Shown here in pieces: positions 8,801-64,000 of a DNA stretch of 64,000 nucleotides. Made by a program: the position numbers and the translations under genes. Under the pieces are notes generated by a model. That model saw nothing but the letters and a program-made list of their open reading frames with translations, was not told the DNA's origin and did not search any database. Source of the stretch: a virus. The stretch is from IMG/VR virus record IMGVR_UViG_3300009481_003321, positions 1 through 64,000 of that record; one strand, written 5' to 3'. Each line of letters starts with the position of its first letter. Positions within the stretch are counted from its first letter, which is position 1.

Positions 8801-8822
8801 TAATTTTGAAAGGGGTGTAAGC

Positions 8823-44322: not shown

Positions 44323-44383
44323 CTCATGCGTACATAACACATATCATTAATTAACGATTGATCCTTTAATAGCAAGGAAAGCC

Positions 44384-44752: not shown

Positions 44753-45227
44753 CTCAAATAAGTTAGATCAAAAAGAGCTTGAAGAAAAGCTAGTTCATTC
44801 TCATTATGGATTGGTTGTTTCTCAAGCTCTTTATTTTTTAGATGATCCTAATTTTGAGGACTATATTCAAGCAGGTCTTATTGGACTGCTTAAAGCAATT
44901 AGAAAATACGATAAAAACAAATCTAAGTTTAGCACGTATGCTTCTGTTTGTATAAGAAACGAAATTAGTAACTTAAACAAAAAAGCAACAAAGCATGCAG
45001 TAAAAAATTCTAGATCTGTCACAGAACAAGATAAGCAGTATAATAAACAAGAGGTTTTGGATGAATGTATTCCAGAGTTTCTATCGGAGGAAAACAAGTT
45101 TATAATTAAACTAAGGATTCAGGGATATACAAATTTAGAAATATCTAATTTTATGTCATGCTCTAAGGCCGAAGTAAAAGAAAAGATAGAGTTAATTATA
45201 AAGCTGTTGAAAGACTATAACGAATGA
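44652..45227 (+). CDS. Second RNA polymerase sigma-factor-like protein, 191 aa
   Basis: Region 2 is clear: LVHSHYGLVVSQALYFLDDPNFEDYIQAGLIGLLKAIRKYDKNKSKFSTYASVCIRNEISNLNKKA (about 49-114). The C-terminal LRIQGYTNLEISNFMSCSKAEVKEKIELIIKLL is a region 4-like helix-turn-helix. The layout resembles FliA/SigB-type and T4 gp55-like factors. ATG 44652 is my choice; an ATG at 44616 gives a longer protein. It overlaps ssb out of frame and touches the glycan operon by ATGA, a fitting place for a late-gene sigma. Confidence 0.75.
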   Translation: MATKGFQQNSESKNSSSLTPLEKKKCLNKNSLVNSNKLDQKELEEKLVHSHYGLVVSQALYFLDDPNFEDYIQAGLIGLLKAIRKYDKNKSKFSTYASVCIRNEISNLNKKATKHAVKNSRSVTEQDKQYNKQEVLDECIPEFLSEENKFIIKLRIQGYTNLEISNFMSCSKAEVKEKIELIIKLLKDYNE

Positions 45228-46855
45228 GAAAAAAAAGAATACTCTTTTGTGGCGAAGCAACATATCTTAACACTGGGTACGCAACATACCTTCGTGAAGT
45301 CATGAAGCGACTTCATGCAACAGAAAAGTATGACCTAGCTGAGTTTGCAAGTTATGGAGAATTAAAAGATCCTAGAGCAAAAACTGTACCTTGGAAATTC
45401 TACGGCAATTTACCAGACGACGAAAGCCAACAAGAAAGATACGATTCATTACCAACTAATCAGTTTGGTGAATGGAAATTTGAATCTGTGCTTTTAGATT
45501 TTCAGCCGGATATAGTATGTGATATACGAGACTTTTGGATGTTTGAGCATCAAGAAAGATCTCCGTATAGACCGTATTTTCACTGGGTTGTCATGCCCAC
45601 TGTTGATGCTGCGCCTCAAAATGAACAATGGTTGTCAACCTTTGAAAGTGCTGATGCTGTATTTAGTTATTCAGACTGGGGACATGAAGTCCTTGAGAAA
45701 GAATCAAATGGTAGCATTAAATGTTTAGGATCTGCTCCACCATCTGCTGATGCAGCTTATATTCCGGTAGAAGATAAAGCCAAGCATAAAGAAAGTATGG
45801 GCTTTGAGGAAAACATTAAGTTTATTGGCACTGTGATGAGAAACCAAAGAAGGAAGCTATTCCCAGACCTCTTTGAGTCTTTTAGAAAGTTTCTCGATCT
45901 AAGCGGTAGAAATGATGTTTGGCTTTACTGCCACACCAGCTTCCCAGACTTAGGATGGGACATACCAAAACTATTACTAAGATATAATTTGTCGAGCAAG
46001 GTTGTTTTCACTTATATCTGCAATAAGTGCGGTCATACTTTCCCAGCTTTCTTTTCTGACGCCAGAAGAAAATGTCAAGCTTGTGGTTCTTTTTCGGCAG
46101 GTCTAGCAAGCGTACAAAAAGGAGCGTCTTATGACTACCTTGCTAGTATTATGAACCTCTTTGATCTTTATATACAGTACGCCAATAGCGAGGGCTTTGG
46201 TCTTCCCCAAGTAGAAGCCGCTGGCTGCGGAGTTCCTGTCATGAGTGTTGATTACTCAGCCATGTCTAGCGTTGTTAGAAAGCTTGGTGGAACACCACTA
46301 AAACCCAAGGCACTTTACAATGAACTAGAGACGGGTTGCAATAGAGCGGTTCCTGATAATGACTATACAGCTCAGAAGATAGAAGAATTTTTTAAACTAA
46401 GCGACGAAGACAGAAAAAGCTTGGGTAAAAACTCAAGACTTAACTTTGAAAAATATTACCAGTGGGACAAAACAGCCAAAAAGTGGGAAGACCACTTCGA
46501 TTCAGTTGAAATAAAACCAGACGAAGAAACTTGGAAGTCTCCACCTCGAATACACCAACCAGTTAACAATGTTCCAGCAGGGTTATCAGCGTCTCAATAC
46601 GCAAGATGGTTAATCGTTAATGTTCTGGGAGAGCCTGAAAAACTGAACACATTTTTTGAGTCAAGACTGATAAGAGACTTGAATTATGGAATGTTTGTCA
46701 TGGGTACAGGAGATTCTTACCTTAACGAAGATTCCTATAAGTTTGTAAGACCTCAATTTGAAAAGTTTGAAAAAGAGGATGCTCACAAAATGATGGTCAA
46801 CATGTGCAATAAACGCAATCAATGGGAAGCCATAAGAAAAGAAAATATCAAATGA
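45224..46855 (+). CDS. GT4-type glycosyltransferase with inserted zinc ribbon, 543 aa
   Basis: Start of a GT-B fold: RILFCGEATYLNTGYATYLREV. The C-terminal YANSEGFGLPQVEAAGCGVPVMSVDYSAM has the E-x7-E motif. Between the halves there is CNKC (266-269) and CQAC (284-287), a zinc ribbon not normal for this family. The last 110 residues after VEIKPDEETWKSPPR form an extra helical domain. It begins the long glycan operon, ATGA-coupled to the sigma-like gene. Confidence 0.85.
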   Translation: MRKKRILFCGEATYLNTGYATYLREVMKRLHATEKYDLAEFASYGELKDPRAKTVPWKFYGNLPDDESQQERYDSLPTNQFGEWKFESVLLDFQPDIVCDIRDFWMFEHQERSPYRPYFHWVVMPTVDAAPQNEQWLSTFESADAVFSYSDWGHEVLEKESNGSIKCLGSAPPSADAAYIPVEDKAKHKESMGFEENIKFIGTVMRNQRRKLFPDLFESFRKFLDLSGRNDVWLYCHTSFPDLGWDIPKLLLRYNLSSKVVFTYICNKCGHTFPAFFSDARRKCQACGSFSAGLASVQKGASYDYLASIMNLFDLYIQYANSEGFGLPQVEAAGCGVPVMSVDYSAMSSVVRKLGGTPLKPKALYNELETGCNRAVPDNDYTAQKIEEFFKLSDEDRKSLGKNSRLNFEKYYQWDKTAKKWEDHFDSVEIKPDEETWKSPPRIHQPVNNVPAGLSASQYARWLIVNVLGEPEKLNTFFESRLIRDLNYGMFVMGTGDSYLNEDSYKFVRPQFEKFEKEDAHKMMVNMCNKRNQWEAIRKENIK

Positions 46856-47970
46856 AAGTTTTATACATAGGTTGCTATAGAGACGGTACTGGCTGGGGAC
46901 AAGCCGCTACGGATTATATACTGGCGATGGATACTGCTGGAATTGATGTAGTTCCAAGGCCAATCAAGCTCAATTCTAATCAGATAAAAGTACCAGACAG
47001 AATTATAGAGTTAGAGAAGAAAGATAGCTCTGGCTGTAATATTTGCATACAACACATTCTCCCACATTTAATGGAATACACCAATAAGTTTGATAAGAAC
47101 ATAGCCCTCTACGCCACAGAGACCAGCAATTTTATTGATTCTGGATGGTCTAGAAACATAAATCTTATGGATGAAGCGTGGGTCATAAACAACCAAATGG
47201 TTAAAGCCTCGCAAGATAGTGGTGTAGACATACCAATAAAGGTAGTTCCTCACGCCTGTGACTTTAACAAGTTTACCAGAAGCTACAAACCATTCGAGCT
47301 ATCCTCGACAGATAACACCTTCACTTTTTACACAATAGCTGACTTTAATAAAAGAAAAAACCTAGAAGCCTTCGTTAAAGCATTTCATGCTGAGTTTGAT
47401 CCTTCGGAGCCGGTCTCCATAATGATTAAATCAAGCAAGTATGGACTGACTGATGAAGAGACTGCAATAAAGATTAGAGACCTCTGCAATCAAGTTAAGA
47501 CAGGTCTTAAAAAATTCAAGAATCTGAGTGACTATAAAGAAGACTTGATAATCACAAGTTTTATTAGTAATGAAGATATTTGCAGGCTACACAGCTTTGG
47601 AGATTGCTTTGTGATGCCTAGCTATGGGGAAGCTTGGTGTATACCCGCTTTTGATGCTATGGCTTTCGGTAAGACCCCTATCTGTACGAACATTGGTGGT
47701 ATGGCAGATTTTGTTGGGGATGGAGGATTTCTTGTAGAGGGTGTCATGGAACCTGTTTGCGATATGCTTGATACTTTTCCAGCCCTGTTTACGGGAAATG
47801 AAGACTGGTGTTCAGTTAGCATACAAGGATTAAGGGAGTGCATGCGACACGCTTATGAAGAAAGCTCTTCTCTTAAAAAGATGAAGGAGACAGGATTAAA
47901 GCGAGCATATGAATACTCCCATGAGAATATTGGTAACTTAATAAAGGATCTGTTAAATGGCGTTAGTTAG
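46852..47970 (+). CDS. GT4-type glycosyltransferase, 372 aa
   Basis: VLYIGCYRDGTGWGQAATDYILAMD opens a GT-B fold. FTFYTIADFNKRKNLEAFVKAFHAEF and FGDCFVMPSYGEAWCIPAFDAMAFGKTPICTNIGG give the donor-binding site with Glu and the G-G loop. The start is ATG 46852, in ATGA with the previous stop. Cytoplasmic; acceptor unknown. Confidence 0.85.
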   Translation: MKVLYIGCYRDGTGWGQAATDYILAMDTAGIDVVPRPIKLNSNQIKVPDRIIELEKKDSSGCNICIQHILPHLMEYTNKFDKNIALYATETSNFIDSGWSRNINLMDEAWVINNQMVKASQDSGVDIPIKVVPHACDFNKFTRSYKPFELSSTDNTFTFYTIADFNKRKNLEAFVKAFHAEFDPSEPVSIMIKSSKYGLTDEETAIKIRDLCNQVKTGLKKFKNLSDYKEDLIITSFISNEDICRLHSFGDCFVMPSYGEAWCIPAFDAMAFGKTPICTNIGGMADFVGDGGFLVEGVMEPVCDMLDTFPALFTGNEDWCSVSIQGLRECMRHAYEESSSLKKMKETGLKRAYEYSHENIGNLIKDLLNGVS

Positions 47971-48994
47971 TCCGATATCTCAAATTATTAGAGCCTCCAC
48001 AAGGAAGCCAGATGAGAAGTTAAATATTCTCACCTTCCCTACGCACGAACGATATGAAACCATGCTTTCAAAGACTGGTCATAATTTCTATGCGTATCGT
48101 GCAGAAGGTATCAAAGATTGGAACGAAACCTATGCTAAAACACCAGATAATTATGTGTTGCTAGATCCATCACTGGGCGATAGTCAAGTTCCAGAATACG
48201 TAGATTTTGATTTGGTTCTCTCGCAAAACAAATTTGGTCAATACCAAAAAGCTAAACAGCTCGCGCATCAACTTCACCTACCATTGGTCAGTTTGGAACA
48301 TACGCTTCCAATGCCGGAATGGGATGAAAACATCATGGGTCAAGTAAGAGAGATGAGGGGAGATGTCAATGTATTCATTTCAGAATATAGTATTAACGCT
48401 TGGGGGTGGGAGAATAGACTTCAAAGCTTTCTAAACAATGACACGTTTGTTATTACTCATGGTGTAGATACTGAACTATTTTGCTCAAAAGAAGACGAAA
48501 GAAGCGACGAGATACTGTCGGTAGTTAACGACTGGATAAACAGAGACTGGTGCTGTGGCTTTAGTGTTTGGCAAGAAGTAATAAAAGGACTACCTTACAA
48601 GGTGGTTGGCGATACTCCGGGTTTGTCTGAACCAGCCGCTTCAACCGAAGGGCTTGTCGCCACCTACCAAAACAGCAGGATATTTTTGAATACATCAACT
48701 ATATCCCCAGTTCCGACAGCTTTAATGGAAGCGATGTCTTGTGGTTGTGCGGTTGTATCAACCGCAACCTGCATGATCCCAGAAGTTATAGAAAATGGAG
48801 TTAATGGTTTTATAACAAATAATGTTGGAGAAATGAAACAGTATCTTGTAGATCTATTAAATGATGAAGATATGGCAAAAGAAATTGGTGAAAACGCCAG
48901 AAAGACAATCTTAGAAAGATACTCTACAGAACGGTTTGTTGAAAACTGGGACAGGCTACTAACAAATTCAGCTAAAATAGTATTTAAGGGATAA
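47957..48994 (+). CDS. GT4-type glycosyltransferase, 345 aa
   Basis: The donor-site region ATYQNSRIFLNTSTISPVPTALMEAMSCGCAVVSTATCMIPEVIENGVNGFIT is classic GT4, with E replaced in part (P-x-x-LMEAMSCG). TFVITHGVDTELF precedes it. The central GFSVWQEVIKGLPYKVVGDTPGLSE is shorter than usual. It overlaps the previous gene by 14 bases. Confidence 0.85.
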   Translation: MALVSPISQIIRASTRKPDEKLNILTFPTHERYETMLSKTGHNFYAYRAEGIKDWNETYAKTPDNYVLLDPSLGDSQVPEYVDFDLVLSQNKFGQYQKAKQLAHQLHLPLVSLEHTLPMPEWDENIMGQVREMRGDVNVFISEYSINAWGWENRLQSFLNNDTFVITHGVDTELFCSKEDERSDEILSVVNDWINRDWCCGFSVWQEVIKGLPYKVVGDTPGLSEPAASTEGLVATYQNSRIFLNTSTISPVPTALMEAMSCGCAVVSTATCMIPEVIENGVNGFITNNVGEMKQYLVDLLNDEDMAKEIGENARKTILERYSTERFVENWDRLLTNSAKIVFKG

Positions 48995-48995
48995 T

Positions 48996-49460
48996 ATGAA
49001 AATTAGAATTACGGTTGGTGACGACCAAAAGCTTAGTGGTTATCTAAATATAGACCCTATATCCAAATTTGACGATTTATCAGTGGATATACGCAATCTT
49101 GATGAAGTCGCCTCAGACGCAGAATGTATGGAAATTCTTTCTGATGACGTAATAGATTACCTAGAAAAGGAAGAGTCTATGCGGGTTGTGTCTCACTGGG
49201 CTAAAAAGTTGAGGCATGGCGGCAAAATAATAGTAACATCAATAGACGCACATGAAGTTGCCAGATCGTTCTACAGAAAAGAAATAGACGTACAAACGTT
49301 TAACAAGGCTATTCATGGCAATTTTACTCAACCTTGGGATGTAAGACTTAGCCAAACAACACTAGAGGAGCTATCTAGCTTTCTTGAGTCTGTTGGTTTA
49401 CAGGTCACTAAAAAAAGAATCAATGGCATTAAATTAGTAGTGGAGGCAGAAAGACCATGA
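48996..49460 (+). CDS. Methyltransferase-like protein, apparently truncated, 154 aa
   Basis: LSGYLNIDPISKFDDLSVDIRNLDEV, then WAKKLRHGGKIIVTSIDAHEVARSF match the middle and later strands of small SAM methyltransferases in glycan clusters. The Gly-rich motif I is missing, since such proteins normally open with a LNxGxG strand before GYxNID. SAM binding is therefore doubtful. It may be a degenerate or accessory partner. One base separates it from the GT4 gene. Confidence 0.6.
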   Translation: MKIRITVGDDQKLSGYLNIDPISKFDDLSVDIRNLDEVASDAECMEILSDDVIDYLEKEESMRVVSHWAKKLRHGGKIIVTSIDAHEVARSFYRKEIDVQTFNKAIHGNFTQPWDVRLSQTTLEELSSFLESVGLQVTKKRINGIKLVVEAERP

Positions 49461-50269
49461 ATAACGAATTAGATACAAATTTTGAGCAAGTAGAGCCTCA
49501 AAGACAAACTCTAACGACTTCTTGTAAAGATTGTATATTTGCTATTAAAGAAGATAAGTTACAAACAGGATGTTCATTTGGAAGAATAGAAGCGTATTCT
49601 AATAGGGGTATCAATATTATAGAAGCAGAAGACTTAGAAGAAAACGAGTTTTTTGTACTTGAAACTTGGTGCAATGCCTACAGGGAAGAGATTTGGAAAA
49701 CAGCTAATGAGAAAGAGGGTGTAGAAAAAGCTCTCAGAAAAGAATTAGATCCCAAAGTTCAATTTATTATTATAATTCAGGATAGCTTAGACGGTATAGA
49801 AAAGACCATAGAATCAGCCCTTAATCAAGAAGAATTTGCTGCTAAAAGATTAATATTTGTTAACAACAGCGAGTTATCTTATTTTGAAGTGATAACAAAA
49901 ATTAACGAAGTTGTTCCAGAGGGAACGGATTACAGAATTCAAGATATCAGAGGAGAACTCAGTGATCTTGAAGTGATCGACGAAGCTTTTAATAATGTCT
50001 CAAATGGATACTATACGGTAATAGAATCTGGAAAAGAACTCCCATCAGATGTCATTAAAAAAATATACGCTGCAATAAGTATAAAAATTCAAAAGGTAGG
50101 ATATATAGAACCTACAGATGGTATTAACTTAATGACAGTACAAGCGGTTCTTCATAAGTTTTTATACGGAAACAGAGGTGCTTCCTTAAAAACAAAGTTA
50201 GAAGACGGGGAAGTTGCAGATAAAGTTAAAGAGGGAAACTCTCTAATTAGAAACTGGAATGAAATTTAA
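49457..50269 (+). CDS. GT2-like protein with N-terminal Cys cluster, 270 aa
   Basis: The N-terminal 75 residues have CKDCIF, GCSF and WCNAY, four or five Cys that could bind metal. From about residue 98 the pattern VQFIIIIQDSLDGIEKTIESALNQEEFAAKRLIFVNNS imitates a GT2 first strand and helix, but the acidic metal-binding motif is not obvious. It precedes a true GT2 gene with a one-base overlap, so it may be its partner. Confidence 0.55.
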   Translation: MNNELDTNFEQVEPQRQTLTTSCKDCIFAIKEDKLQTGCSFGRIEAYSNRGINIIEAEDLEENEFFVLETWCNAYREEIWKTANEKEGVEKALRKELDPKVQFIIIIQDSLDGIEKTIESALNQEEFAAKRLIFVNNSELSYFEVITKINEVVPEGTDYRIQDIRGELSDLEVIDEAFNNVSNGYYTVIESGKELPSDVIKKIYAAISIKIQKVGYIEPTDGINLMTVQAVLHKFLYGNRGASLKTKLEDGEVADKVKEGNSLIRNWNEI

Positions 50270-51063
50270 TGACATTACCAACAGTTACTGTACTAATAGC
50301 GAACTATAACGATGAAGACTACTTAGACATTGCTATAGAAAGCGCTATTAACCAAGACTATCCCGGCCCATTAAACATATGTATTGTAGACGATGGTTCT
50401 ACAGATGGATCTTGGGGTATCATCGAAACCTACATTAAAAATCCTGCAAAAGATACCACCGAAAATGATTTAGACATAACCTTTTCTCAATACTCCGGTG
50501 GAAGATTTGGCAACACAAAAGTATACGCTATTAAAAATGAGAATAGTGGCCCAAGTGAAGCTAGAAATGTAGGCATTAGATACATGATGGATAAAACAGA
50601 AATATTTGCCATCTTAGATTCTGATGATGAAATGTATGAAAATAAAATAACTGAATGCCTTCCAGTCTTTGAAAGAGGTGAAGGTATGGTTGGTGTAGTT
50701 TATGCAGACTACGACACATTGCATATGGACACAGGAAAAGTTATTAGAGAATATAAAGAGCCATTTAGCAGAAATAGACTCACACAAGAATGTATAGTTC
50801 ATAGCGGATCTTTAATTTCCAAAGAAGCCCTAGAAGAAATTTTGGAAGAAACTGGCTATTACGATAACACAATGAGAACTTGTGAAGATTATGATCTTTG
50901 GATGCGAATAAGTGAAAAGTTTATTATAGCCCATGTTCCCAAGGCGCTTACCAGAGTAAGGGTTACTGGAGACAACTCTTCTTTTATTGTCAATCAAGAA
51001 ACTTGGCAAAAAAATTGGAGAAGGGTCATGGAAAAAATGCAAGCAAGAATAAATGCCAAATAG
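50269..51063 (+). CDS. GT2-family glycosyltransferase, 264 aa
   Basis: The GT2 signature is full: VTVLIANYNDEDYLDIAIESAINQDYPG, CIVDDGSTDGSWGII, NSGPSEARNVGIRY, and FAILDSDDEMY with the DxD-like metal site. CEDYDLWMRISEKF is the late acidic motif. This is an inverting enzyme acting in the cytoplasm. It overlaps its downstream neighbour by 11 bases. Confidence 0.9.
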   Translation: MTLPTVTVLIANYNDEDYLDIAIESAINQDYPGPLNICIVDDGSTDGSWGIIETYIKNPAKDTTENDLDITFSQYSGGRFGNTKVYAIKNENSGPSEARNVGIRYMMDKTEIFAILDSDDEMYENKITECLPVFERGEGMVGVVYADYDTLHMDTGKVIREYKEPFSRNRLTQECIVHSGSLISKEALEEILEETGYYDNTMRTCEDYDLWMRISEKFIIAHVPKALTRVRVTGDNSSFIVNQETWQKNWRRVMEKMQARINAK

Positions 51064-51760
51064 GTTTACGACAACAGTAAAGAAAATAGGCGCTGGAACA
51101 GCTCCAGAAAAACCGCTGACAGTAATAATACCTGTTGCGGGCATGGGTCATAGAATGAAATCTTATGGCCCAAAGTGCTTACTGCCTGCAAATAAAAAAG
51201 AAACTATACTAGAGAAAACAATCTCTAATATAGAAAGGGAATATCCCTATTCTGATATTATTGTTGTAGCTGGGTTTGAATCAGAAAAAGTAATCAAAAC
51301 CCTACCACAAAGCGTAAGGGTTGTTGAAAACTATCAGTATGAATCAACCAATATTGCCGAAAGCATAAGAATTGGCATTAATGCCGCAGCGAATAAGCAC
51401 CTTCTTATTGTTTATGGAGACTTGGTTTTTAATGTCTACTCTATTAGAGATATAACATCAGACGGCCCATGTGCAGTTGTAGACTCTAAAGAAAGATTTA
51501 AAGAAGATGAAGTAGGGGTTACAGTAGTCGATGAAAACATAACTAATTTTGCTTACGGGCTTCCTAAAAAATGGTCGCAAATAGCTTACTTTGAAAATAA
51601 GTCTTTTGACATTTTAAAAGAATTATGTTCAGACAAAAGAAAAAGTAAACTGTATCCTTTCGAGCTGTTTAACATAATTATTAATAGCGGCATATCAATG
51701 AAGGCAAAGGAGCCATCCGGTATGCTAATAAAAGAAATTGATTCACTAAAGGATCTATGA
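51053..51760 (+). CDS. Sugar nucleotidyltransferase-like protein, 235 aa
   Basis: LTVIIPVAGMGHRMKSYGPKCLLPANKKETILEKTI is the G-x-G-x-R-x(6)-PK motif of NTP-transferases, and LIVYGDLVFN carries the metal Asp. Such enzymes make NDP-sugars or CDP-alcohols. The first 18 residues are extra. Substrate not predictable. Confidence 0.8.
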   Translation: MPNRFTTTVKKIGAGTAPEKPLTVIIPVAGMGHRMKSYGPKCLLPANKKETILEKTISNIEREYPYSDIIVVAGFESEKVIKTLPQSVRVVENYQYESTNIAESIRIGINAAANKHLLIVYGDLVFNVYSIRDITSDGPCAVVDSKERFKEDEVGVTVVDENITNFAYGLPKKWSQIAYFENKSFDILKELCSDKRKSKLYPFELFNIIINSGISMKAKEPSGMLIKEIDSLKDL

Positions 51761-52939: not shown

Positions 52940-52940
52940 A

Positions 52941-55626: not shown

Positions 55627-56999
55627 TTAAGTTAATCGTTTTTGATCTTGATGGAGTTTTAGTAGAAGCCAGAGATATACATTATCTAGCCCTTAATGAT
55701 GCTCTAGCTAATATGGACGAAAGCTATGTAATAAGTAGAGAAGAGCATTTGTCCAGTTACGATGGTTTACCAACCTCTAAGAAGCTAATGAAGCTTTCTA
55801 AGGAAAAAGGTCTCCCAGTTTCATTTCATAAACATGTCTGGAAAGAAAAACAAAAAGCTACAGAGAGAGTAATCTCAAGCAAAATTAAACCGCAAGATCA
55901 TGTGGGTATTGCAATGACCCTAAGAAGATTAAAATCGGAAGGTTACAAAATATACTGTGCTTCAAACTCTATAAGATCTAGTGTTAAGCTGATGCTTCTT
56001 AAAGCTGGTTATTTAGAATACATTGACGAATACCTATCTAATGAAGACGTAAAGCACCCAAAGCCACACTCTGAAATTTATCTAAAGTGCATGATTCATG
56101 CTGGAGTTAATCCTCAAGAATGTTTGATAGTAGAAGATTCGCATATAGGAAGAGAAGCTGCTGCAAAATCCGGTGCTTTTGTAATGGGTGTTAGAAATTT
56201 AAAAGATGTAATCCCTATAAAAGTACTGGACGCAATTGATGAAGCAAACAAAAAGCAAAAACCGATTGCACCTAAATGGCAGGGCGGTAAAATGAAAGTT
56301 TTGATACCAATGGCTGGAGCTGGGTCTAGGTTTGAAAAAGCTGGATACACATTTCCAAAACCCCTAATTGAGGTTAATGGAAAGCCAATGATTCAAGTTG
56401 TTGTTGAAAACCTAAATATAGAAGCAGAACACATATTCATAGTCCAAAAAGAACATTATGAAAAATACAATTTACGATATTTACTAAACCTCATATCTCC
56501 AGACTGTAAAATAGTTCAAGTAGATGGAATGACAGAAGGTGCTGCCTGCACGACCCTTCTTGCCGAGCAGTATATTAATAATGATGAGCCTTTGTTGGTT
56601 GCCAATTCTGATCAATTTGTGGACTGGAATAGTAATGAATTTTTATATTCCATGCAGGCAGACGAAGTAGACGCTGGAATACTTACGTTTGAATCTATTC
56701 ATCCTAAATGGAGCTTTGCCAAACTTGGTGAGGATGGGTTTGTATCTGAAGTAGCAGAAAAGAAACCAATTAGCAATAAAGCTACTGTTGGTATTTACTA
56801 CTGGTCTAAAGGCAGTGACTATGTAAGATACGCTAACCAAATGATATATAAAAACAAGAGAGTCAATAATGAATTTTACGTATGTCCAATTTTTAATGAA
56901 GCTATAGAAGATGGTAAAAAAATCAAAACATTTGATATAGACAAAATGTGGGGACTTGGCACACCAGAAGACTTGGAGGTATTTTTAAATGGCACTTAA
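55623..56999 (+). CDS. HAD phosphatase fused to sugar nucleotidyltransferase, 458 aa
   Basis: N-terminal HAD hydrolase: FDLDGVL (D8, D10), CASNSIRSS (motif II), KHPKPHSEIY (motif III Lys) and IVEDSHIGREAA (motif IV). After a linker near residue 215, VLIPMAGAGSRFEKAGYTFPKPLIEVNGKPMI is an NTP-transferase head and LLVANSDQFVDW its metal site. The phosphatase and activation steps of NDP-sugar making would be joined in one chain, as in heptose synthesis, although the order differs from known fusions. An internal ATG at 56291 could yield the transferase alone. Confidence 0.85.
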   Translation: MIKLIVFDLDGVLVEARDIHYLALNDALANMDESYVISREEHLSSYDGLPTSKKLMKLSKEKGLPVSFHKHVWKEKQKATERVISSKIKPQDHVGIAMTLRRLKSEGYKIYCASNSIRSSVKLMLLKAGYLEYIDEYLSNEDVKHPKPHSEIYLKCMIHAGVNPQECLIVEDSHIGREAAAKSGAFVMGVRNLKDVIPIKVLDAIDEANKKQKPIAPKWQGGKMKVLIPMAGAGSRFEKAGYTFPKPLIEVNGKPMIQVVVENLNIEAEHIFIVQKEHYEKYNLRYLLNLISPDCKIVQVDGMTEGAACTTLLAEQYINNDEPLLVANSDQFVDWNSNEFLYSMQADEVDAGILTFESIHPKWSFAKLGEDGFVSEVAEKKPISNKATVGIYYWSKGSDYVRYANQMIYKNKRVNNEFYVCPIFNEAIEDGKKIKTFDIDKMWGLGTPEDLEVFLNGT

Positions 57000-57672
57000 A
57001 ATTTTCATTGGCTGGGATTCTAGAGAGGTAAATGCCTACAAAGTTTGCGTAGAATCTTTACTAAAGCACTCTTCAGAAGAGCTTGATATTACGCCTATCG
57101 TAAGAGAAAACCTCATGGATACGGGTGAGTATTTTAGAGAGCAGCCAGAGGCAGGTTCTGTAGAATTTACCTATACTCGATTTTTAACGCCTTACTTGGC
57201 TGAATACAAAGATTGGGCATTATTTATAGATTGTGATTTTTTGTTTACGCAAGATGTAGCTAAATTGTTCAGTTTTGCAAACGATAAATACGCATTAATG
57301 TGTGCTAAACATGATTATGTTCCTAAAAACTCAGTCAAAATGGACGGGCAAAAGCAAGTTGCTTACCCTAGAAAAAATTGGTCTAGCTGCATTTTGTGGA
57401 ATTGTGGACATCCAATGAATAGTCTTTTAACCCCAAAAACCACAAGTGAATGGACAGGTGCTTATCTTCATCGCTTTATGTTTCTAAAAGATAATATGAT
57501 TGGTGAAATTCCAATAGAGTGGAACTGGCTAGAAGGTGAGTATAATAAAGAAGAATTTGAAGACACATACAAAAGACCACCTTCTGCTATCCACTTTACA
57601 AATGGAGGGCCGTGGTTTGATAATTGGCAAGATGTAGACTATGCAGATTTGTGGAGAAGCTATTCATCATGA
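56989..57672 (+). CDS. GT8-like glycosyltransferase, 227 aa
   Basis: IFIGWDSREVNAYKVCVESLLKHSS, TYTRFLTPYLAEYKDWALFIDCDFLF with DxD (about 78-80) and AIHFTNGGPWFDNWQ with the late His are GT8-type. It is likely a retaining enzyme with Mn(II). It overlaps the HAD fusion gene by 11 bases. Confidence 0.78.
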   Translation: MALKIFIGWDSREVNAYKVCVESLLKHSSEELDITPIVRENLMDTGEYFREQPEAGSVEFTYTRFLTPYLAEYKDWALFIDCDFLFTQDVAKLFSFANDKYALMCAKHDYVPKNSVKMDGQKQVAYPRKNWSSCILWNCGHPMNSLLTPKTTSEWTGAYLHRFMFLKDNMIGEIPIEWNWLEGEYNKEEFEDTYKRPPSAIHFTNGGPWFDNWQDVDYADLWRSYSS

Positions 57673-58451
57673 TACTATACGTTACCTCGTTTAATGAAAA
57701 TCTTTTTAACGCTACCGGCAAAAAAATGCTAGAGTCTTTTGTTTATGTAAAAACAGAAGGTCACATGCTTGCAACTTACGAAGGTAACGTTGATTTACCA
57801 AAACACAGAAAAATTATCCCATGCTCATTAGATGACAACTCGTTTTTGCATGACTGGCTGGAAGACAACGCCGATGTAATACCAAAAGAACTTGGTGGTG
57901 AGTTTTCTGGAGAAATGGATAAATACAATTTTAGAGCAAGTCAATGGTTTAGAAAAATAGTAGCGCTCAAGGAAGCGTTAAAATATAAGGATGATTACGA
58001 AGCGGTTGTATTTGTAGACTCCGATGTTAGATTCAAACGCAAGCTTACAGAAGAGTTTATGCTATCTATGTTTGGTGATACCGCAATGTTTTATCACCTT
58101 GGGCCTTTTAGAGAAGAAGCAGACGCAGGAATAGAGTCTGGGTTTATAGGATTTCACATGAAGAATGGCGGTGTTGATTTTCTAGAAACTGTATTTTCTA
58201 AGTTTAAAGACAAGAGCTATAGAGAATATAGACGTTGGGATGATAGTTATGTGTTCCACAATACCGTCAAAGAAAGATCAGATCTAAAATATACGGACGT
58301 AGTTCCTGTTTTTAGTAGAGAAGAAATGATGAAGCCCGGAGCTGGTGGTTGTGGTCATGTAATTCACCGTGGGCCTTTTGCTCCATATCTAAAACATCTC
58401 AAGGGTGTTCACTGGCAAAAACATGGGGTCGAATTTAAAGATGAAGCCTAG
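57669..58451 (+). CDS. Putative GT-A glycosyltransferase, 260 aa
   Basis: ATG 57669 overlaps the GT8-like stop in ATGA. VFVDSDVRF (about 115-123) has the DxD motif, and GGCGHVIHRGPFAP near residue 230 gives a late His. The protein resembles other GT8/GT-A enzymes and follows one. Acceptor unknown. Confidence 0.65.
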   Translation: MILYVTSFNENLFNATGKKMLESFVYVKTEGHMLATYEGNVDLPKHRKIIPCSLDDNSFLHDWLEDNADVIPKELGGEFSGEMDKYNFRASQWFRKIVALKEALKYKDDYEAVVFVDSDVRFKRKLTEEFMLSMFGDTAMFYHLGPFREEADAGIESGFIGFHMKNGGVDFLETVFSKFKDKSYREYRRWDDSYVFHNTVKERSDLKYTDVVPVFSREEMMKPGAGGCGHVIHRGPFAPYLKHLKGVHWQKHGVEFKDEA

Positions 58452-59223
58452 AGTAACCTTTTTAGTTGCAGATACTAAACTTAAATCTCATAAAGCCGCC
58501 CACATTTTTAAAAAAGGCTATGGGCGCTGCAACATAATGCTTTCTGACGAATGGGTAAAATATTCAAAACAAGGAATATATCCAAAAGACTTAGCTACTT
58601 ATGGAATACTAATTGGTCAATATAACGACAAAGGAGAGTTTATAAAAAGAGCCAGAAAGAAATCCAAAAACTTTTGGCATATTGATCATGGATATTTCCT
58701 TAGATCCTCATCGACAACTTCTTTTGATGGTTATTTTAGAATAGTCAGAAATAATTTGTGGAACGATGTATCCGAAAAAGACCATTCTTGGGATAGGTTC
58801 AATTCCTTCAATATAAAAATGAAAGACTTAAGAAAAAATGGAAATCACATAGTAATAATAAAACCGTCTGTTTATATGACAAAATACTTTCCTATTCTAG
58901 ATGACTGGCTTGGCACAACAATCAACAATCTTAAACAGCACACAGATAGGAAAATAGTAGTGTCAACAAAGAATGACAATCCTTTATCTGAGTGCCTGAA
59001 AGATGCTTGGTGTGTCGTAACGGATCATTCAAACGCAGGTATTGAATCTATGATTAATGGAATACCTGCAATATTCACAAATGAAACTAGAAAAAATGGA
59101 GAGCTGTCTCAGGTAGAAGACCCACCTTTTGACAGAAGTTTTTTTAAAGATTTAGCTCATTGTCAATGGAACACAGAAGAAATTATGGGAGGTGACCCTT
59201 GGGAAGATACAACAAGTTACTAG
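58441..59223 (+). CDS. Capsule-glycan synthesis-like protein, 260 aa
   Basis: RVTFLVADTKLKSHKAAHIFKKGYG starts an alpha/beta domain. KIVVSTKNDNPL and WCVVTDHSNAGIESMINGIPAIFTNET (about 195-221) resemble the C-terminal half of capsule glycosyltransferases and CDP-glycerol-type transferases. I read it as a GT-B-like transferase. It overlaps the methyltransferase gene by 25 bases. Confidence 0.55.
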   Translation: MKPRVTFLVADTKLKSHKAAHIFKKGYGRCNIMLSDEWVKYSKQGIYPKDLATYGILIGQYNDKGEFIKRARKKSKNFWHIDHGYFLRSSSTTSFDGYFRIVRNNLWNDVSEKDHSWDRFNSFNIKMKDLRKNGNHIVIIKPSVYMTKYFPILDDWLGTTINNLKQHTDRKIVVSTKNDNPLSECLKDAWCVVTDHSNAGIESMINGIPAIFTNETRKNGELSQVEDPPFDRSFFKDLAHCQWNTEEIMGGDPWEDTTSY

Positions 59224-59762
59224 AAGAAGTAGCAAAGCGACAACCAAAAACAATAGTAGAAGTAGGCACTCATATGGGAATGAGTGCTGTTCGCATGATT
59301 GAGGAAGCTCAAAAATTCAATGATGATGTCTTCTATTATGGATTTGATCTTTTTGAATACATGACTGAAGAATATAAAAAATACGAATTTCATGGCAAAA
59401 GCAATTGTAATTTCGCAGAACCCACCAAGAAACTTAAAAAGACAGGATGTGAATATAAATTAAAGGGTGGTAATACGAGGAAAACCCTTAAGAAGTTCGA
59501 TCCAGACAGACAAATCGACTTTGTTTTTATTGATGGTGGCCATTCGGTAGAAACCATACAAAGCGACTGGGATAATATTAAGAGACTGATGGACGACGAA
59601 ACTGTAGTTATATTTGATGACTACTATGAAAACAGAGATGATGTGGGTTGTAAAAAAGTCATAGAAGAAATGTCTGAAGATTACAACGTGACCTTATTAG
59701 ATCCAGTAGATTATATCGAGAAGAATGATCTATACATAAGGTTTGTAAAGGTAACCAAATGA
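59199..59762 (+). CDS. SAM-dependent methyltransferase, 187 aa
   Basis: TIVEVGTHMGMSAVRM (motif I, about 18-33), IDFVFIDGGHSVETIQSDWDN (about 105-125) and VVIFDDYY follow the Methyltransf_24/class I pattern. It would methylate a sugar or another small acceptor in the glycan pathway. ATGA links it to the next gene. Confidence 0.82.
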   Translation: MGRYNKLLEEVAKRQPKTIVEVGTHMGMSAVRMIEEAQKFNDDVFYYGFDLFEYMTEEYKKYEFHGKSNCNFAEPTKKLKKTGCEYKLKGGNTRKTLKKFDPDRQIDFVFIDGGHSVETIQSDWDNIKRLMDDETVVIFDDYYENRDDVGCKKVIEEMSEDYNVTLLDPVDYIEKNDLYIRFVKVTK

Positions 59763-60799
59763 AAAAGGGAGTCATGTGGATTGGTAGAAAGGGAAGGTCT
59801 GTAGAGTCAATAGGCTTTGCTGACAAGCAGTTCATTCAGTGGATATACAAAGAAACTCCCTTTAACGTTCTTGCAGACACAGTTTATGACAGCACTCAAT
59901 TTAGCATAAAACAAAATCGTTTGTACTTCAGGGATTCTTTGTTAAGAATGTCTGATTACGACACAGCCATATTTTCCTTTAATGCAGAATGGATAACTAA
60001 AGAAAACTATAAAAAAATAGAAGAGGTTTATTACTGGATAAAAGAAAATACCGAATGTGAAATAATCAATAAGCTACCAGACTTTAAAAGAGATGCACAG
60101 AAAGAAAAATACTTTAGCCAACTTAAAATAAACAATATACAAGTTCCAAACTACAGCATAATAAACAAAAAAGAAGACCTGCTAGGGGTAAAGTTTCCCT
60201 ATATAATAAAGTTCAATAATATTCACCAATGGAAAAAGGTTCACAATATTGAAGAGGCTGAAAAATATTATAAGTTATTATCTGAATCCTTAAGGAAAGA
60301 TCAGTTACAGGAAGGATTAAAATATTATGAGAAATTTTCAGACATAAAATTTTCTTCCTTGCGGTATGACACAAAGATAATTGCTGTGGAATTTATTGAT
60401 AATTTTAATGGCAAGTATTGCTCTGCTTCATCCGTGTCTTTTATTAAAGGGGAAATGTTTTATCAGTACAGTCTTTGCTGCCCTGAAAGAGGAGTGGACG
60501 CTATTCATATAGCAGACGTAACTAACTTTGATTTTTTTAGAGCTGGCCAGTTAGAGCTAGAGGAAGTTATCAATTCCAATAAAGAGGCTTTCAAAAGAGT
60601 TGCGAGATTGTCTTTAGACACCGCAAAAATAGACTTCTTGATTGTTGATGGAAAACCTGTGTTCTTAGAACAAGGGTTAAAATTTGGAACATCGTTTAAT
60701 GCAATCAGGTCTCTAGAGTCACATTACCCTAAGATGAAAGAAAAACGTTCGCATCAAAATATGTTAAATATGATATCAAGGAGATCTCATGGGTCATAA
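59759..60799 (+). CDS. ATP-grasp-like protein, 346 aa
   Basis: CEIINKLPDFKRDAQKEKYFSQLKINNIQVPNYSII, FPYIIKFNN (Lys of the ATP-binding strand) and AKIDFLIVDGKPVFLEQGLKFGT with acidic metal ligands (about 300-322) resemble the ATP-grasp fold. Such proteins form amide or peptide bonds by acyl-phosphate. In a glycan operon it could attach an amino acid. The similarity is judged by eye only. Confidence 0.5.
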   Translation: MKKGVMWIGRKGRSVESIGFADKQFIQWIYKETPFNVLADTVYDSTQFSIKQNRLYFRDSLLRMSDYDTAIFSFNAEWITKENYKKIEEVYYWIKENTECEIINKLPDFKRDAQKEKYFSQLKINNIQVPNYSIINKKEDLLGVKFPYIIKFNNIHQWKKVHNIEEAEKYYKLLSESLRKDQLQEGLKYYEKFSDIKFSSLRYDTKIIAVEFIDNFNGKYCSASSVSFIKGEMFYQYSLCCPERGVDAIHIADVTNFDFFRAGQLELEEVINSNKEAFKRVARLSLDTAKIDFLIVDGKPVFLEQGLKFGTSFNAIRSLESHYPKMKEKRSHQNMLNMISRRSHGS

Positions 60800-61166
60800 A
60801 ACACTAACTGGCGCTATTCAAGGAAAGTTTTGGGGAACAACAAGATGCTTCTTTGAAAATTGCTCATCTGAAGTTCATTACATAGAAGCAAATAAAGGCG
60901 GTTTCTGCTCTAGGCATCATCATGCAAATAAATGGAACAGATTTATTGTGCTAGAAGGAGCTTTGAAGGTTATAATATATAAGCAGGATAGTGAAGATGA
61001 GACAATATTAACTGATGGTATGTTTTCAGATGTTCCTCCCGGTGTAGATCATCGCTTTGAAGCCTTGGAAAACACTAAGGCTTTGGAAGTTTATTGGGTT
61101 GATGGACTTGATCCTTCTGACATAGTGAGAAAAGACTCCGGTGGACTTAAAGCTGAAAATAAATAA
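60789..61166 (+). CDS. Cupin-domain protein, 125 aa
   Basis: The cupin motif 1 is GGFCSRHHHANKWNRFIVLEGALKVI with three adjacent His, and motif 2 is DVPPGVDHRFEALE. One small beta barrel. Cupins in such clusters are often sugar epimerases or sugar-phosphate isomerases, but the residues for a specific reaction cannot be assigned. AAGGAG precedes the ATG. Confidence 0.8.
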   Translation: MGHKTLTGAIQGKFWGTTRCFFENCSSEVHYIEANKGGFCSRHHHANKWNRFIVLEGALKVIIYKQDSEDETILTDGMFSDVPPGVDHRFEALENTKALEVYWVDGLDPSDIVRKDSGGLKAENK

Positions 61167-61800
61167 ACCAATTTTAGTCGTTGGTTCTGGATTTTCAGGA
61201 AAGGTAAACACAGAAGATTTTTTTGTTTTGTGTAGCGGAAAATCCCTATACTCTTTGGATTATGCAGATGTTGTTATCTCATTGGATTTAATTAGGATCA
61301 TTCATAATATATCTAACTTTAGAAAGAGATGGGGAATTCACCTAGTACCACACAGAATAACAAACGAACAATGGTTTGGTAGATCAAGTGGAATAATGCA
61401 AAGAGAGTCTGGAGAAGTTGTTTATTTGAAAAGTCCAGTTCACTCCCTGATGTTTTGGAGACCGGATGAGTTTGTCTACCTTAATGAAACAAAGGGGCGA
61501 TTTGATAAACTGAATATCTGTTGTGATTCACTTTCATATGAAGATGCAAATAAAATAATAAACTTCCCAAGGTTTAAAGTTAAAAAATTTTTACGAGAAG
61601 ATACGGTTAGCTACAGTGATTTTGGAAATAAGGATGGTGTCTTAAGAAATAACTCTAGTAGTATACATTTAATATTAAATTTACTATGGTTAAATAAAGT
61701 TAATAAGATATATACTTTGGGGGTAACAGAAGATCACTATAGCTGGAATGTAACAAAGCGTCTTATGGATATGTACAACATTAGTTATGAGAGGTTATAA
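61141..61800 (+). CDS. Hypothetical glycan-cluster protein, 219 aa
   Basis: The start is GTG 61141, within the cupin gene; no ATG suits. ILVVGSGFSGKVNTEDFFVLCSGKSL and SSSIHLILNLLWLNKVNKIYTLGVTEDHYSW look like a Rossmann-type fold, recalling DUF115-like and sialyltransferase-like proteins in which the last block binds nucleotide. Assignment is weak. Confidence 0.5.
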   Translation: MDLKLKINKPILVVGSGFSGKVNTEDFFVLCSGKSLYSLDYADVVISLDLIRIIHNISNFRKRWGIHLVPHRITNEQWFGRSSGIMQRESGEVVYLKSPVHSLMFWRPDEFVYLNETKGRFDKLNICCDSLSYEDANKIINFPRFKVKKFLREDTVSYSDFGNKDGVLRNNSSSIHLILNLLWLNKVNKIYTLGVTEDHYSWNVTKRLMDMYNISYERL

Positions 61801-61801
61801 A

Positions 61802-62275
61802 ATGTTATTTATCTCACACCGAGGAAACACGAATGGCCCAAAGTCATCGTTGGAGAATACCGAGGGATACATTAAAGCGGCTCTGAATAAGCGTTACTTT
61901 GTTGAAGTAGATGTCTGGAAAATTAAAGACAATTGGTTCTTAGGACATGACGGGCCACAATATGCAACGACCGAAGAATTCATTTCTCAGCCATTTTTGC
62001 TTCTTCATGCAAAGAACCTAGAAGCTTTTAAGTCAATGCTTAGCTTAGAATTACATTGCTTTTGGCATCAAGAGGACTTTTACACACTAACAAGTCGTGG
62101 GATTATTATAAGTTATCCGGGTTATGCTTCAGGCGAAGATACAATTTGTATGCAACCTGAGTTACTATCTATGGACACGGTCTCTAATGCGTATGCAATA
62201 TGCTCTGACTATGTTGATTTATTTAAAAATATAAAAAAAGAAGAAAGATCAATTGGCTTTAATGAAACACGATGA
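61802..62275 (+). CDS. Glycerophosphodiester phosphodiesterase-like protein, 157 aa
   Basis: SHRGNTNG (H6, R7), ENTEGYIKAAL and VEVDVWKIKDNWFLGHDGP follow the GDPD barrel start, with E and D for metal and a His on the next strand. The protein is only about two thirds of a normal GDPD. It may be a short variant specialised for a glycan bond. ATG 61802 comes one base after the previous stop. Confidence 0.65.
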   Translation: MLFISHRGNTNGPKSSLENTEGYIKAALNKRYFVEVDVWKIKDNWFLGHDGPQYATTEEFISQPFLLLHAKNLEAFKSMLSLELHCFWHQEDFYTLTSRGIIISYPGYASGEDTICMQPELLSMDTVSNAYAICSDYVDLFKNIKKEERSIGFNETR

Positions 62276-63065
62276 TGTAACTCTTGTTTTGCAAGGGCCA
62301 ATAGAAAAAGGAAAGCTAGGAACCTACCTAGTTGCTGGAATGAAGAATTTAAAATATTATTCTGAAACAGCCAAAACCATTATATCCACTTGGAAAGGAG
62401 CTGAACTAAAACCATCAAAAAGATTTCTAGCTAAATACAATATTGATATTATAGAAGCAAGCGAAGATCTTTATAAAAACATGTATCGTGATGCCAACAT
62501 GAACTTTCAAGTAGCATCCACTCTAAATGGGCTAAAAAAAGTAAAAACTAAATATGTGATCAAGCTTAGATGCGATGAATCTTTCAGTGACTTATCGAAA
62601 TTTATACAAAAAATAAAAGACAATCCAGAAAAAATAGTTACAACAAACATATTCTTTAGCAAGAACAGTTATGATCCGTTTCATCCATCGGATCATGTTA
62701 TTGGCGGCACAACAGAAAATATGAAAAGCATGTTTGGTTATGCTTTTAAGGTTTGTCAAAAGGAAAACACAAACAAACGACTAAACGCAGATTATTTTGG
62801 AGTTCCAAATTTAATTAATCGTGATGGAGACAATGGGCTTTCTCCAGAAACATTTTTATGTTTTTGTTATTTGATATCTAAAGGTATTGCACTTGATCTC
62901 AATAAGAGTGTAGAAATAATGAAAGAAAACTATGAGATTGTACCCCTAGAAGACATGGGAAAATTTCATTGCAAATATGACATATCAGTAATCGACAATA
63001 CAAATTATGACTTTTATCTAAACAACCTGCCACAAAATTTCTTACGATCTATGAATGATCTATAA
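62262..63065 (+). CDS. WavE-like glycan synthesis protein, 267 aa
   Basis: VTLVLQGPI, TAKTIISTWKG, QVASTLNGLKKVKTKYVIKLRCDESFSDL (R-x-D as acceptor/metal site) and GDNGLSPETFLCFCYL resemble WavE LPS-synthesis proteins, taken as glycosyltransferases. ATG 62262 overlaps the GDPD-like gene. Cytoplasmic. Confidence 0.72.
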   Translation: MKHDDVTLVLQGPIEKGKLGTYLVAGMKNLKYYSETAKTIISTWKGAELKPSKRFLAKYNIDIIEASEDLYKNMYRDANMNFQVASTLNGLKKVKTKYVIKLRCDESFSDLSKFIQKIKDNPEKIVTTNIFFSKNSYDPFHPSDHVIGGTTENMKSMFGYAFKVCQKENTNKRLNADYFGVPNLINRDGDNGLSPETFLCFCYLISKGIALDLNKSVEIMKENYEIVPLEDMGKFHCKYDISVIDNTNYDFYLNNLPQNFLRSMNDL

Positions 63066-63082
63066 TTTATAAGGACACAAGA

Positions 63083-64000
63083 ATGACAAAAATCTTAGTG
63101 ACGGGAGGTGGCGGTTATGTTGGTAACGTTCTATGCCGACACCTTCTCGATAAAGGCTACAGAGTAAAGTGCGTTGACAACTTTCATAAGGGTCAATGCG
63201 ATGCCATAATCCCATTAGCTACAAATCCTAACTTTGAATTTGAGTATGGGGATGTTACCGTTCTAGAACAAATGAAGGAGGCTGTTCTTGGGTGTGACGC
63301 TATTATTCATCTCGCTGCTATTGTTGGCTTTCCGGCTTGCAAATCCCAACCTGCGCTGGCTACGGCAGTAAATGTAGAAGGTACTAGAAACATGCTCTTC
63401 GCAAGAGCAGCTTATAACCCAGATATGCCTTTCGTTTACGCCTCCACAGGCAGCGTCTATGGCAAAGTAGAGGGTATTTGCACAGAAGAGTCCCCACTGA
63501 ACGCCGTGTCTCTGTACGGGCTAAATAAGCGCGTTGCAGAGGAGATGGTAGCCAGTCAAAACAACACTGTTTCTTTTAGGTTCGCTACTGGATTTGGTGT
63601 TAGCCCATGTATGCGGGTGAACTTGCTCGTAAACGACTTTGTTTATCAGTCCTTGACGAATGGTATTCTTACTATTTTTCAAGCAGATTTTCGTAGAACA
63701 TTTATCCATGTTAGAGATATGGCAAAAGCCTTTACTACGGGTGTTGAAAACATGGGAAATTGGAAACATAAGGTTTATAATTGTGGTGCTAATCACCTTA
63801 ATTGGACAAAAAGAGAGCTTGCAGAATATGTAAAAAAGAAAACAAACTGCTTCGTTCATTATGAAGAAATTGGAACAGACGCTGACCAAAGAGACTATGA
63901 AGTTAGCTATAATAAATTAGAGGATGAGGGCTTTGTATGTGATGTAGATATGAAGACAGGAATCAAAGAACTAATCAAGGTAGCACCAATCTTACAAATA
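63083..64000 (+). CDS. NAD-dependent epimerase, partial at the window end (306 codons shown)
   Basis: The frame opens at ATG 63083 with AAGGA upstream and has no stop before 64000. TKILVTGGGGYVGNVLCRHLL has GxxGxxG; AIIHLAAIVG, FVYASTGSVYGKVEG and YGLNKRVAEEM (Y-x3-K) are the extended-SDR motifs. FRRTFIHVRDMAKAF continues the fold. It is like UDP-glucose 4-epimerase or dTDP-sugar epimerases and would supply the operon with an activated sugar. Confidence 0.88.
   Translation, partial: MTKILVTGGGGYVGNVLCRHLLDKGYRVKCVDNFHKGQCDAIIPLATNPNFEFEYGDVTVLEQMKEAVLGCDAIIHLAAIVGFPACKSQPALATAVNVEGTRNMLFARAAYNPDMPFVYASTGSVYGKVEGICTEESPLNAVSLYGLNKRVAEEMVASQNNTVSFRFATGFGVSPCMRVNLLVNDFVYQSLTNGILTIFQADFRRTFIHVRDMAKAFTTGVENMGNWKHKVYNCGANHLNWTKRELAEYVKKKTNCFVHYEEIGTDADQRDYEVSYNKLEDEGFVCDVDMKTGIKELIKVAPILQI

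Follow-up and report, generated by a model that had tools for sequence, protein, structure and literature searches.

The sequence we investigated comprises bases 1-64000 of the linear IMG/VR virus record IMGVR_UViG_3300009481_003321, whose full length is 71,019 bases. We refer to these 64,000 bases as the window; all coordinates are window positions, and genes are named by their start coordinate (e.g., 45224 or 63083). The subject of this analysis is an island of genes for glycan biosynthesis that begins at 45224, and the comparison with related records reveals that uncultured bacterial viruses of one group, most of them marine, hold a swappable set of glycan genes at one fixed genomic spot. 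Open reading frame (ORF) calling finds an unbroken run of plus-strand genes from 38370 to 68071, in which neighboring genes overlap in most cases and are otherwise separated by at most 17 bases; the sole larger gap, 61 bases (44323-44383), lies ahead of the gene for the single-stranded DNA-binding protein. The island overlaps a sigma-factor gene by 4 bases at its start and ends at 65428, beyond the window. It comprises 24 genes of at least 90 amino acids (aa), three of which extend past 64000 (63083-64018, 64015-64968, and 64955-65428). Downstream follow a nuclease-like gene (65421-66209), an annealing-protein-like gene (66209-67132), and genes for a zinc protein and a methyltransferase. The product of 66209-67132 resembles single-strand annealing proteins by eye, with Pfam matching an N-terminal HeH domain only. 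Because nuclease-like and annealing-protein-like genes follow it, the island lies inside, and not merely after, the replication-recombination block. From 68122 onward, genes lie on the minus strand and converge on the plus-strand run; a strong terminator separates the two.

The relatives used for comparison are about 40 contigs from two IMG/VR scans, among which 20 complete islands were compared. The genes of the left flank and the island are listed below; all are on the plus strand, and fractions give the prevalence among the 20 complete islands.

44384-44752, plus strand: single-stranded DNA-binding protein in the left flank (PHROG phrog_44, E 1.5e-22)
44616-45227, plus strand: sigma-70-type factor, encoded immediately ahead of the island (PHROG sigma factor, E 2e-22); a homologue lies upstream of the island in closer relatives
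45224-46855, plus strand: left bookend, glycosyltransferase of the GT4 type whose insert resembles a Cys4 zinc ribbon (Pfam Glycos_transf_1, 32.7 bits, cut-off 26.4; 20/20)
46822-47970, plus strand: core GT4 glycosyltransferase (Glycos_transf_1, E 2.8e-13; 17/20)
47957-48994, plus strand: core GT4 glycosyltransferase (Glycos_transf_1, E 6.3e-17; 17/20)
48996-49460, plus strand: core protein of 154 aa, by eye a putative shortened S-adenosylmethionine methyltransferase, without Pfam or PHROG match (16/20; dN/dS, the ratio of nonsynonymous to synonymous substitution rates, 0.032 vs. relative L003)
49457-50269, plus strand: core protein with an N-terminal Cys4 domain and a predicted GT-A fold, a probable pseudo-glycosyltransferase according to its structure model (17/20)
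50269-51063, plus strand: core GT2 glycosyltransferase, DSDD intact (Glycos_transf_2, E 3.8e-23; 16/20)
51053-51760, plus strand: core NTP-transferase of the sugar nucleotidylyltransferase fold (Pfam IspD/NTP_transferase; 20/20)
51757-51909, plus strand: ORF of 50 aa between the nucleotidyltransferase and the CgeB-like gene, conserved in position in close relatives (49-84% identity)
51890-52939, plus strand: core CgeB-like glycosyltransferase (Glyco_trans_1_2, E 2.2e-22; 16/20)
52929-53900, plus strand: NAD-dependent sugar epimerase/dehydratase (Epimerase, E 4.7e-31; best solved relative 3ehe, annotated GalE-1; 12/20)
53897-54913, plus strand: exostosin-like putative glycosyltransferase, recognized by eye, without Pfam, PHROG or PDB match (10/20)
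54913-55626, plus strand: GT25 glycosyltransferase (Glyco_transf_25, 29.1 bits, cut-off 24; 10/20)
55623-56999, plus strand: fusion of a HAD domain (beta-phosphoglucomutase type) with a sugar nucleotidylyltransferase, opening the optional module (HAD_2, E 2.4e-27; NTP_transferase, E 4.3e-12; 6/20)
56989-57672, plus strand: GT8 glycosyltransferase with DCD motif (Glyco_transf_8, 30.6 bits, cut-off 24.3; 6/20)
57624-58451, plus strand: putative glycosyltransferase with DSD motif, without Pfam match (6/20)
58405-59223, plus strand: putative GT-B-like transferase of a variable cassette, without above-cut-off Pfam match (5/20)
59199-59762, plus strand: methyltransferase (Methyltransf_24, E 8.2e-16; 4/20)
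59759-60799, plus strand: protein of 346 aa found in this island alone (no relative passes the thresholds applied), matching neither Pfam nor PDB and a PHROG only weakly
60789-61166, plus strand: cupin, highly conserved where present (Cupin_2, 33.9 bits, cut-off 27.2; 77-93% identity; 7/20)
61141-61800, plus strand: optional-module protein with no assigned function, without Pfam or PHROG match (6/20)
61787-62275, plus strand: short protein resembling glycerophosphodiester phosphodiesterases (GDPD-like), with HRG, E-x-D and HD motifs in its sequence (function-unknown PHROG, E 2.9e-21; 6/20)
62253-63065, plus strand: WavE-type glycosyltransferase of the optional module (WavE, E 5.6e-15; 6/20)
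63083-64018, plus strand, with 63083-64000 inside the window: Cj1427-like short-chain dehydrogenase/reductase (SDR) enzyme (PDB 6vo6, E 1.6e-72; 12/20)

The initial annotation of the window had described a gapless block of glycan genes from 45224 to 64000 with at least twelve glycosyltransferases. ORF calling bears out the block, except that it does not end with the window; the contig extension proposed in that annotation places the island's end and the nuclease- and annealing-type genes in the record beyond 64000. Eight of the glycosyltransferases score above the curated Pfam cut-offs: 45224, 46822 and 47957 (GT4-type), 50269 (GT2), 51890 (CgeB-like), 54913 (GT25), 56989 (GT8), and 62253 (WavE). 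The other four are only probable, 49457 being placed with GT-A enzymes by predicted fold, and 53897, 57624 and 58405 by eye, without above-cut-off Pfam matches. Pfam also supports the nucleotidyltransferases (51053, 55623), the epimerases/dehydrogenases (52929, 63083), the methyltransferase 59199, and the cupin 60789, whereas the ATP-grasp label of 59759 could not be confirmed. The GDPD-like label of 61787 agrees with the visible motifs, but its PHROG match is to a family of unknown function. A match of the 45224 insert to Zn_ribbon_8 falls under the Pfam cut-off, MocA/GlmU-type NCBIfam models match 51053 far under their cut-offs, and a PHROG search with the orphan core genes returned no match. 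The block had further been described as fused to the replication operon, which holds in spirit, the island in fact being located between replication and recombination genes, and as lacking a visible promoter. Promoter-like matches indeed show no excess (51 observed vs. 62.7 +/- 8.5 in shuffles); however, this count is weak evidence, because the phage encodes sigma factors of its own. Two of the sigma-70 type are present in this one phage (15337-15843 and 44616-45227), and the gene for the second immediately precedes the island.

In 22 of 22 and in 10 of 10 records, a homologous GT4 gene is the first in the slot, which replication genes border on the left and nuclease/annealing genes on the right. 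The GT4 gene at the start of the slot and the nuclease gene at its end are common to all 20 complete islands, and in 21 of 22 records the island itself ends with gene 64955, which resembles half of a GT-B enzyme; the remaining record is a contig that stops short of that point. Between these ends, island size ranges from 5.8 to 27.5 kb, with 7 to 32 genes, and 36 of the 85 gene families present in the 20 islands occur in a single island. The left core of eight genes, 45224 to 51890, is kept in the same order in 16 of 20 islands. To its right, prevalence falls from 12 of 20 islands for 52929 and 63083 to 10 for 53897-54913 and six for the optional module (55623 to 62253). Mapped on the tree of flank and bookend genes, the presence of the optional module requires four changes in the best tree, at least two of which are forced by well-supported branches. 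The smallest islands, of 5.8-6.5 kb, are found in the most distant relatives; in them the GT4 bookend and the nucleotidyltransferase persist, and 64955 has a strongly diverged homologue. In close relatives, a giant unannotated protein (~2,700 aa) is encoded on the minus strand convergent with the island (L002:14493-16019, L065:12645-20912); Pfam and PHROG searches with this large protein returned no match.

Selection was measured against the closest relative, L003, for which dS is 0.36-1.16; we did not rely on dN/dS values for distant relatives because their dS is saturated. The nine island genes covered by L003 (45224 to 52929 plus 53897) have dN/dS values of 0.032-0.098, compared to 0.003-0.283 for 13 replication-region genes, and the island and the remainder of the contig agree in GC content and codon usage (r = 0.97-0.98). 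The island is a resident and selected part of the genome, under purifying selection. Because its dN/dS of 0.03-0.10 resembles that of the replication genes, it represents neither stuffer DNA nor a misassembly. A misassembly with host DNA, which the initial annotation had named as a finding that would overturn its interpretation, is also excluded by the conserved synteny, the slot recurring in many other contigs, and by the matching GC content and codon usage.

Two of the conserved proteins look like incomplete transferases. Neither 49457 nor 64955 has a match among 50,697 phage records, and the left bookend 45224 has one weak match only. In the N-terminal domain of 49457, C23, C26 and C39 are invariant and C72 is nearly so. 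The remainder is predicted to adopt a GT-A fold (pLDDT 81), the best Foldseek match being the GT2-type fucosyltransferase WrtF (E 6e-7, TM 0.43); however, the D-x-D metal-binding motif of catalytic GT2 enzymes is found nowhere in the 49457 sequence. The 64955 protein, with 157 aa, has a single domain, whereas a complete GT-B enzyme has two Rossmann domains. The model of its orthologue in L062 (pLDDT 89.5) forms one Rossmann-like domain, like half a GT-B enzyme; its nearest GT-B match, BshA, is about half covered, with a TM of 0.66 and a weak E of 0.02. The motifs YVWDxEWxR and ARSxxHxxxIxxYxN are nearly invariant in this family. From the predicted structures we infer that 49457 and 64955 may have non-catalytic roles.

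The genes at the right end of the island bear on the sugar that may be transferred. The best PDB match of 63083, which keeps the YxxxK motif, is 6vo6 (E 1.6e-72; next best 4e-25), which we take to be the Campylobacter jejuni GDP-heptose 4-dehydrogenase Cj1427. The function of Cj1427 as a GDP-heptose 4-dehydrogenase has been described (PMC10680097). In most close relatives that have it, 63083 is the most conserved island gene (80-93% identity), and a scan of genome contigs for its bacterial source found nothing. The next gene, 64015, encodes a homologue of GDP-L-fucose synthase; the C4-reductases of the Campylobacter GDP-heptose pathway are members of that family (PMC7949155, PMC10680097). In the 64015 protein, Thr replaces Ser107, His replaces Tyr136, and Lys replaces His179, with Cys109 and Lys140 kept; these substitutions are common to all close relatives, and L075, L079 and L081 keep the Tyr and the His. 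As both the triad Ser107/Tyr136/Lys140 and the dyad Cys109/His179 are altered, 64015 should not be assumed to be a canonical GDP-fucose synthase. The profile matches of the cupin 60789 are to Cupin_2/WbuC-like families and none is to the RmlC family. Judged by these homologies, the sugar is probably a GDP-linked heptose or a related hexose made via a 4-keto form. The arrangement resembles the capsular GDP-heptose pathway of C. jejuni (Cj1427, MlghC) in that the Cj1427-like gene is followed by the GDP-fucose-synthase/C4-reductase homologue (PMC10680097, PMC7949155). It differs in that no RmlC-like C3/C5 epimerase was recognized here, and in the altered catalytic residues of the reductase homologue.

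The large number of glycan genes had been interpreted as specifying a long polysaccharide. The searches do not support this: flippases (PF01943), polymerases/ligases (PF04932), and lipid-linked initiating transferases (PF02397, PF00953) were found in none of 22 records, one of which is 223 kb long, and positive controls were detected. In a simple hydropathy scan, no protein in the 71 kb record, including all island proteins, has two or more predicted membrane helices, and none of 1,244 ORFs of relatives has three or more; in larger relatives the predicted multi-helix cases are only small ones or sporadic matches within long proteins. The island thus lacks all three components of loci for Wzx/Wzy-exported polysaccharides, and phage-encoded Wzx/Wzy export was rejected for the 22 records. 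It also differs from the lysogenic gtr serotype-conversion cassette, which combines a small membrane flippase with a membrane-bound transferase, in having no protein with at least two helices. A homologue of thymidylate synthase-type enzymes or hydroxymethylases (PF00303), the nucleotide hydroxymethylase of T4-type DNA glucosylation, was found in none of the 22 records. The missing export genes and the absence of multi-helix proteins fit a soluble glycan that may be built stepwise better than a phage-autonomous exported polysaccharide; the latter, and T4-like DNA glucosylation, are disfavored by the gene content. Without export genes, three options are left for the acceptor: virion proteins, host machinery, and DNA. 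Distant relatives encode Thr/Pro/Ser-rich, mucin-like proteins, with 60-aa windows of up to 84% S/T/P, which are candidate O-glycosylation acceptors there (L039:9519-11663 on the minus strand, and several in L043 to L054 (G020)); one is located directly beside the island. We do not use them as main evidence, because they are confined to distant relatives.

Clusters of glycan genes are known from other viruses. T4-like cyanophages P-SSM2, S-SSM7 and S-SM2 carry lipopolysaccharide (LPS) gene clusters of unproven function (PMC3037559), which likewise form a multi-gene block of glycosyltransferase and nucleotide-sugar genes in a tailed-phage genome, and cyanophages S-PRM1, S-8S55 and B23 encode full-length homologues of the HAD-nucleotidyltransferase fusion that are 59-62% identical to 55623. 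However, the lineage described here differs from the T4-like cyanophages in its split DnaE polymerase and distant TerL, and the cyanophage clusters lie near hli, psbA and phoH, whereas the island occupies a fixed, bookended slot between sigma and nuclease/annealing genes. In the variable regions of pelagimyophages, which are marine phages, glycosyltransferases are numerous and GT8 is among them (PMC7029224); there, the transferases are scattered or mixed with tail-fiber genes in a host-recognition region, and here they form a single ordered operon. In mycobacteriophages, subunits of the capsid and the tail are glycosylated by phage-encoded transferases (described in PMC12619734), and phage Maravista has two transferases (PMC11256854); compared to the 24-gene island these are few, and virion glycosylation here is predicted from genes. 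The cytoplasmic capsid glycosylation of the chlorovirus PBCV-1 uses mostly soluble, early-expressed transferases and a methyltransferase and yields glycans in which a conserved core bears virus-specific decorations (PMC5408694). The island is similar in that its transferases appear soluble, export machinery is missing, and a methyltransferase is present. Chloroviruses, however, infect eukaryotes, have scattered transferase genes, and their capsid glycans have been demonstrated, whereas those of the phages described here are predicted.

The explanation we tentatively favor is that the island encodes a functional, phage-borne cytoplasmic glycosylation pathway with a conserved core and swappable decorations, whose likeliest acceptors would be virion proteins; the preference for virion proteins is based on the analogy to chloroviruses, with their soluble transferases, conserved core, and virus-specific decorations. 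Under this explanation, soluble nucleotidyltransferases and SDR enzymes would make activated sugars in the cytoplasm, the soluble GT4, GT2 and CgeB-like enzymes would assemble a conserved inner glycan, and the optional GT8, GT25, WavE, methyltransferase and cupin genes would supply lineage-specific outer residues. The 49457 and 64955 proteins may serve as non-catalytic subunits or acceptor-recognition parts. As in chloroviruses, a phage virion protein would receive its glycan in the cytoplasm, while the particle is being assembled or earlier, and the swappable outer glycan would vary the chemistry of the virion surface against decoys, receptors or grazers. Several points weigh against this explanation. 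The mucin-like proteins occur in distant small-island relatives and not in this record or G013, the virion genes of the lineage are not recognizable by sequence searches, and no acceptor protein can be named from the sequence. A host flippase or ligase could export the glycan and, as all 22 records are possibly fragments, an exporter may be encoded elsewhere in the genome. A bolder version, which we regard as doubtful, is that the slot is a phage "glycotype" locus, similar to capsule loci in its constant end genes and swapped transferase cassettes, with a complete cytoplasmic pathway that would coat the virion with a conserved-core, variable-tip glycan and incomplete-transferase subunits that would choose the acceptor.

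The chief alternative is that the island remodels the host surface, extending or replacing an LPS, capsule or sheath glycan via the host's lipid carrier, flippase and ligase, and thereby blocking superinfection or the re-adsorption of progeny. Transferases of the WavE, GT25 and GT8 families typically belong to LPS synthesis, similar gene sets in pelagimyophages were interpreted as host O-chain modification by their authors (PMC7029224), the continuity with the replication genes makes early or mid-infection expression probable, and the variability of the island is compatible with arms races over surface glycans. Nevertheless, we consider this explanation rather unlikely, as membrane, flippase, polymerase and initiating transferase genes are all missing, unlike in self-contained serotype-conversion systems, and as the host is uncultured and unproven. 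A mixed function, in which the left core would act on the virion or on DNA and the optional module to its right on the host envelope, has in its favor the tree changes of the module 55623-62253 (at least two, and four in the best tree), whose first gene is 60% identical to homologues in cyanophage glycan clusters. However, there is no operon break between core and module, whose genes share direction and overlap, and such a division of labor appears improbable.

If the transferases instead decorated a modified phage base as protection against restriction, then the location among replication genes would be expected, and the genome does encode a deoxynucleotide monophosphate kinase-like protein (PF21448), a dCMP deaminase-type protein, and a dUTPase; virus-encoded DNA-hypermodifying transferases exist, as cited in a passage of PMC12619734. 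This explanation is very unlikely, as the thymidylate-synthase/hydroxymethylase homologue was found in none of the 22 records and neither a hydroxylase nor a T4-type DNA glucosyltransferase is found among the Pfam matches of the island and 31 other window proteins. The number of genes, as the initial annotation had pointed out, is far above what DNA glucosylation needs, and gene number and variability together far exceed known DNA modification. Least credible is that the island is non-functional stuffer or passive cargo, a notion raised for the cyanophage LPS clusters. The island is large, variable, and differs in size between close relatives, but the low dN/dS, the intact reading frames, and the invariant core order in 16 of 20 islands largely refute this idea.

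TerL was found in three of 22 records and is ~26% identical to the TerL of Bacillus phage Staley; because TerL is present, we consider these phages tailed. The lineage encodes its DnaE-type polymerase in two pieces, the PHP and N part of the polymerase III alpha subunit at 39933-41846 and the finger/C part at 42694-44322; between them lie a 76-aa ORF and a gene for a DnaQ-type exonuclease. All relatives examined share this split, and L007, L011, L012, L014, L016 and L017 have an extra ORF of 257-258 aa between the exonuclease and the C part. Literature searches found no published description of this lineage; moraphages (PMC12619734) were considered as a match and rejected, as they have a family B polymerase, unlike these phages. 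A DUF1501 protein with a twin-arginine-like N terminus (6917-8155) has its best matches in Planctomycetota in 29 of 30 loci, most with 41-47% identity, which suggests a planctomycete host. Elsewhere in the window, ARAGORN and Rfam (E 4.5e-41) identify a transfer-messenger RNA (904-1243, tag AEHSFAIAA), with tRNA-Asp, tRNA-Met and tRNA-Arg nearby. Unusual phage cargo includes a matrixin-type metalloprotease with an apparent export signal (8763-9464, E 1e-34) and a homologue of membrane dipeptidase (M19; 20667-21890, E 1e-52). Small glycan groups are also found outside the island, at 9654-13355 and 23522-26290; they contain exostosin/RXYLT1-like and GT4 transferases alongside a PAP2 phosphatase, as well as an epimerase accompanied by an orphan gene, and 12498 and 24490 are paralogues (27%). 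Two tandem paralogues (16547-17671 and 17690-18718; 41% identical) have no PHROG match, 16547 having no Pfam match either, and are possibly virion proteins.

Phage glycan clusters were already known from cyanophages and pelagimyophages, and the HAD-nucleotidyltransferase fusion is common to the cyanophages and the lineage described here. New are the bookended, fixed slot with its conserved core and swappable middle, the evidence of function, and two proteins specific to the lineage that look like incomplete transferases. When T4-like cyanophages were compared in 2010, the question whether their LPS clusters are functional or stuffer DNA was not decided (PMC3037559). For one lineage, more than 20 related records now answer this question through strong purifying selection, a fixed slot, and conserved ends. 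If the island does glycosylate the virion, then these phages would be prokaryotic viruses with a chlorovirus-like glycan coat that is self-encoded and rapidly swapped.

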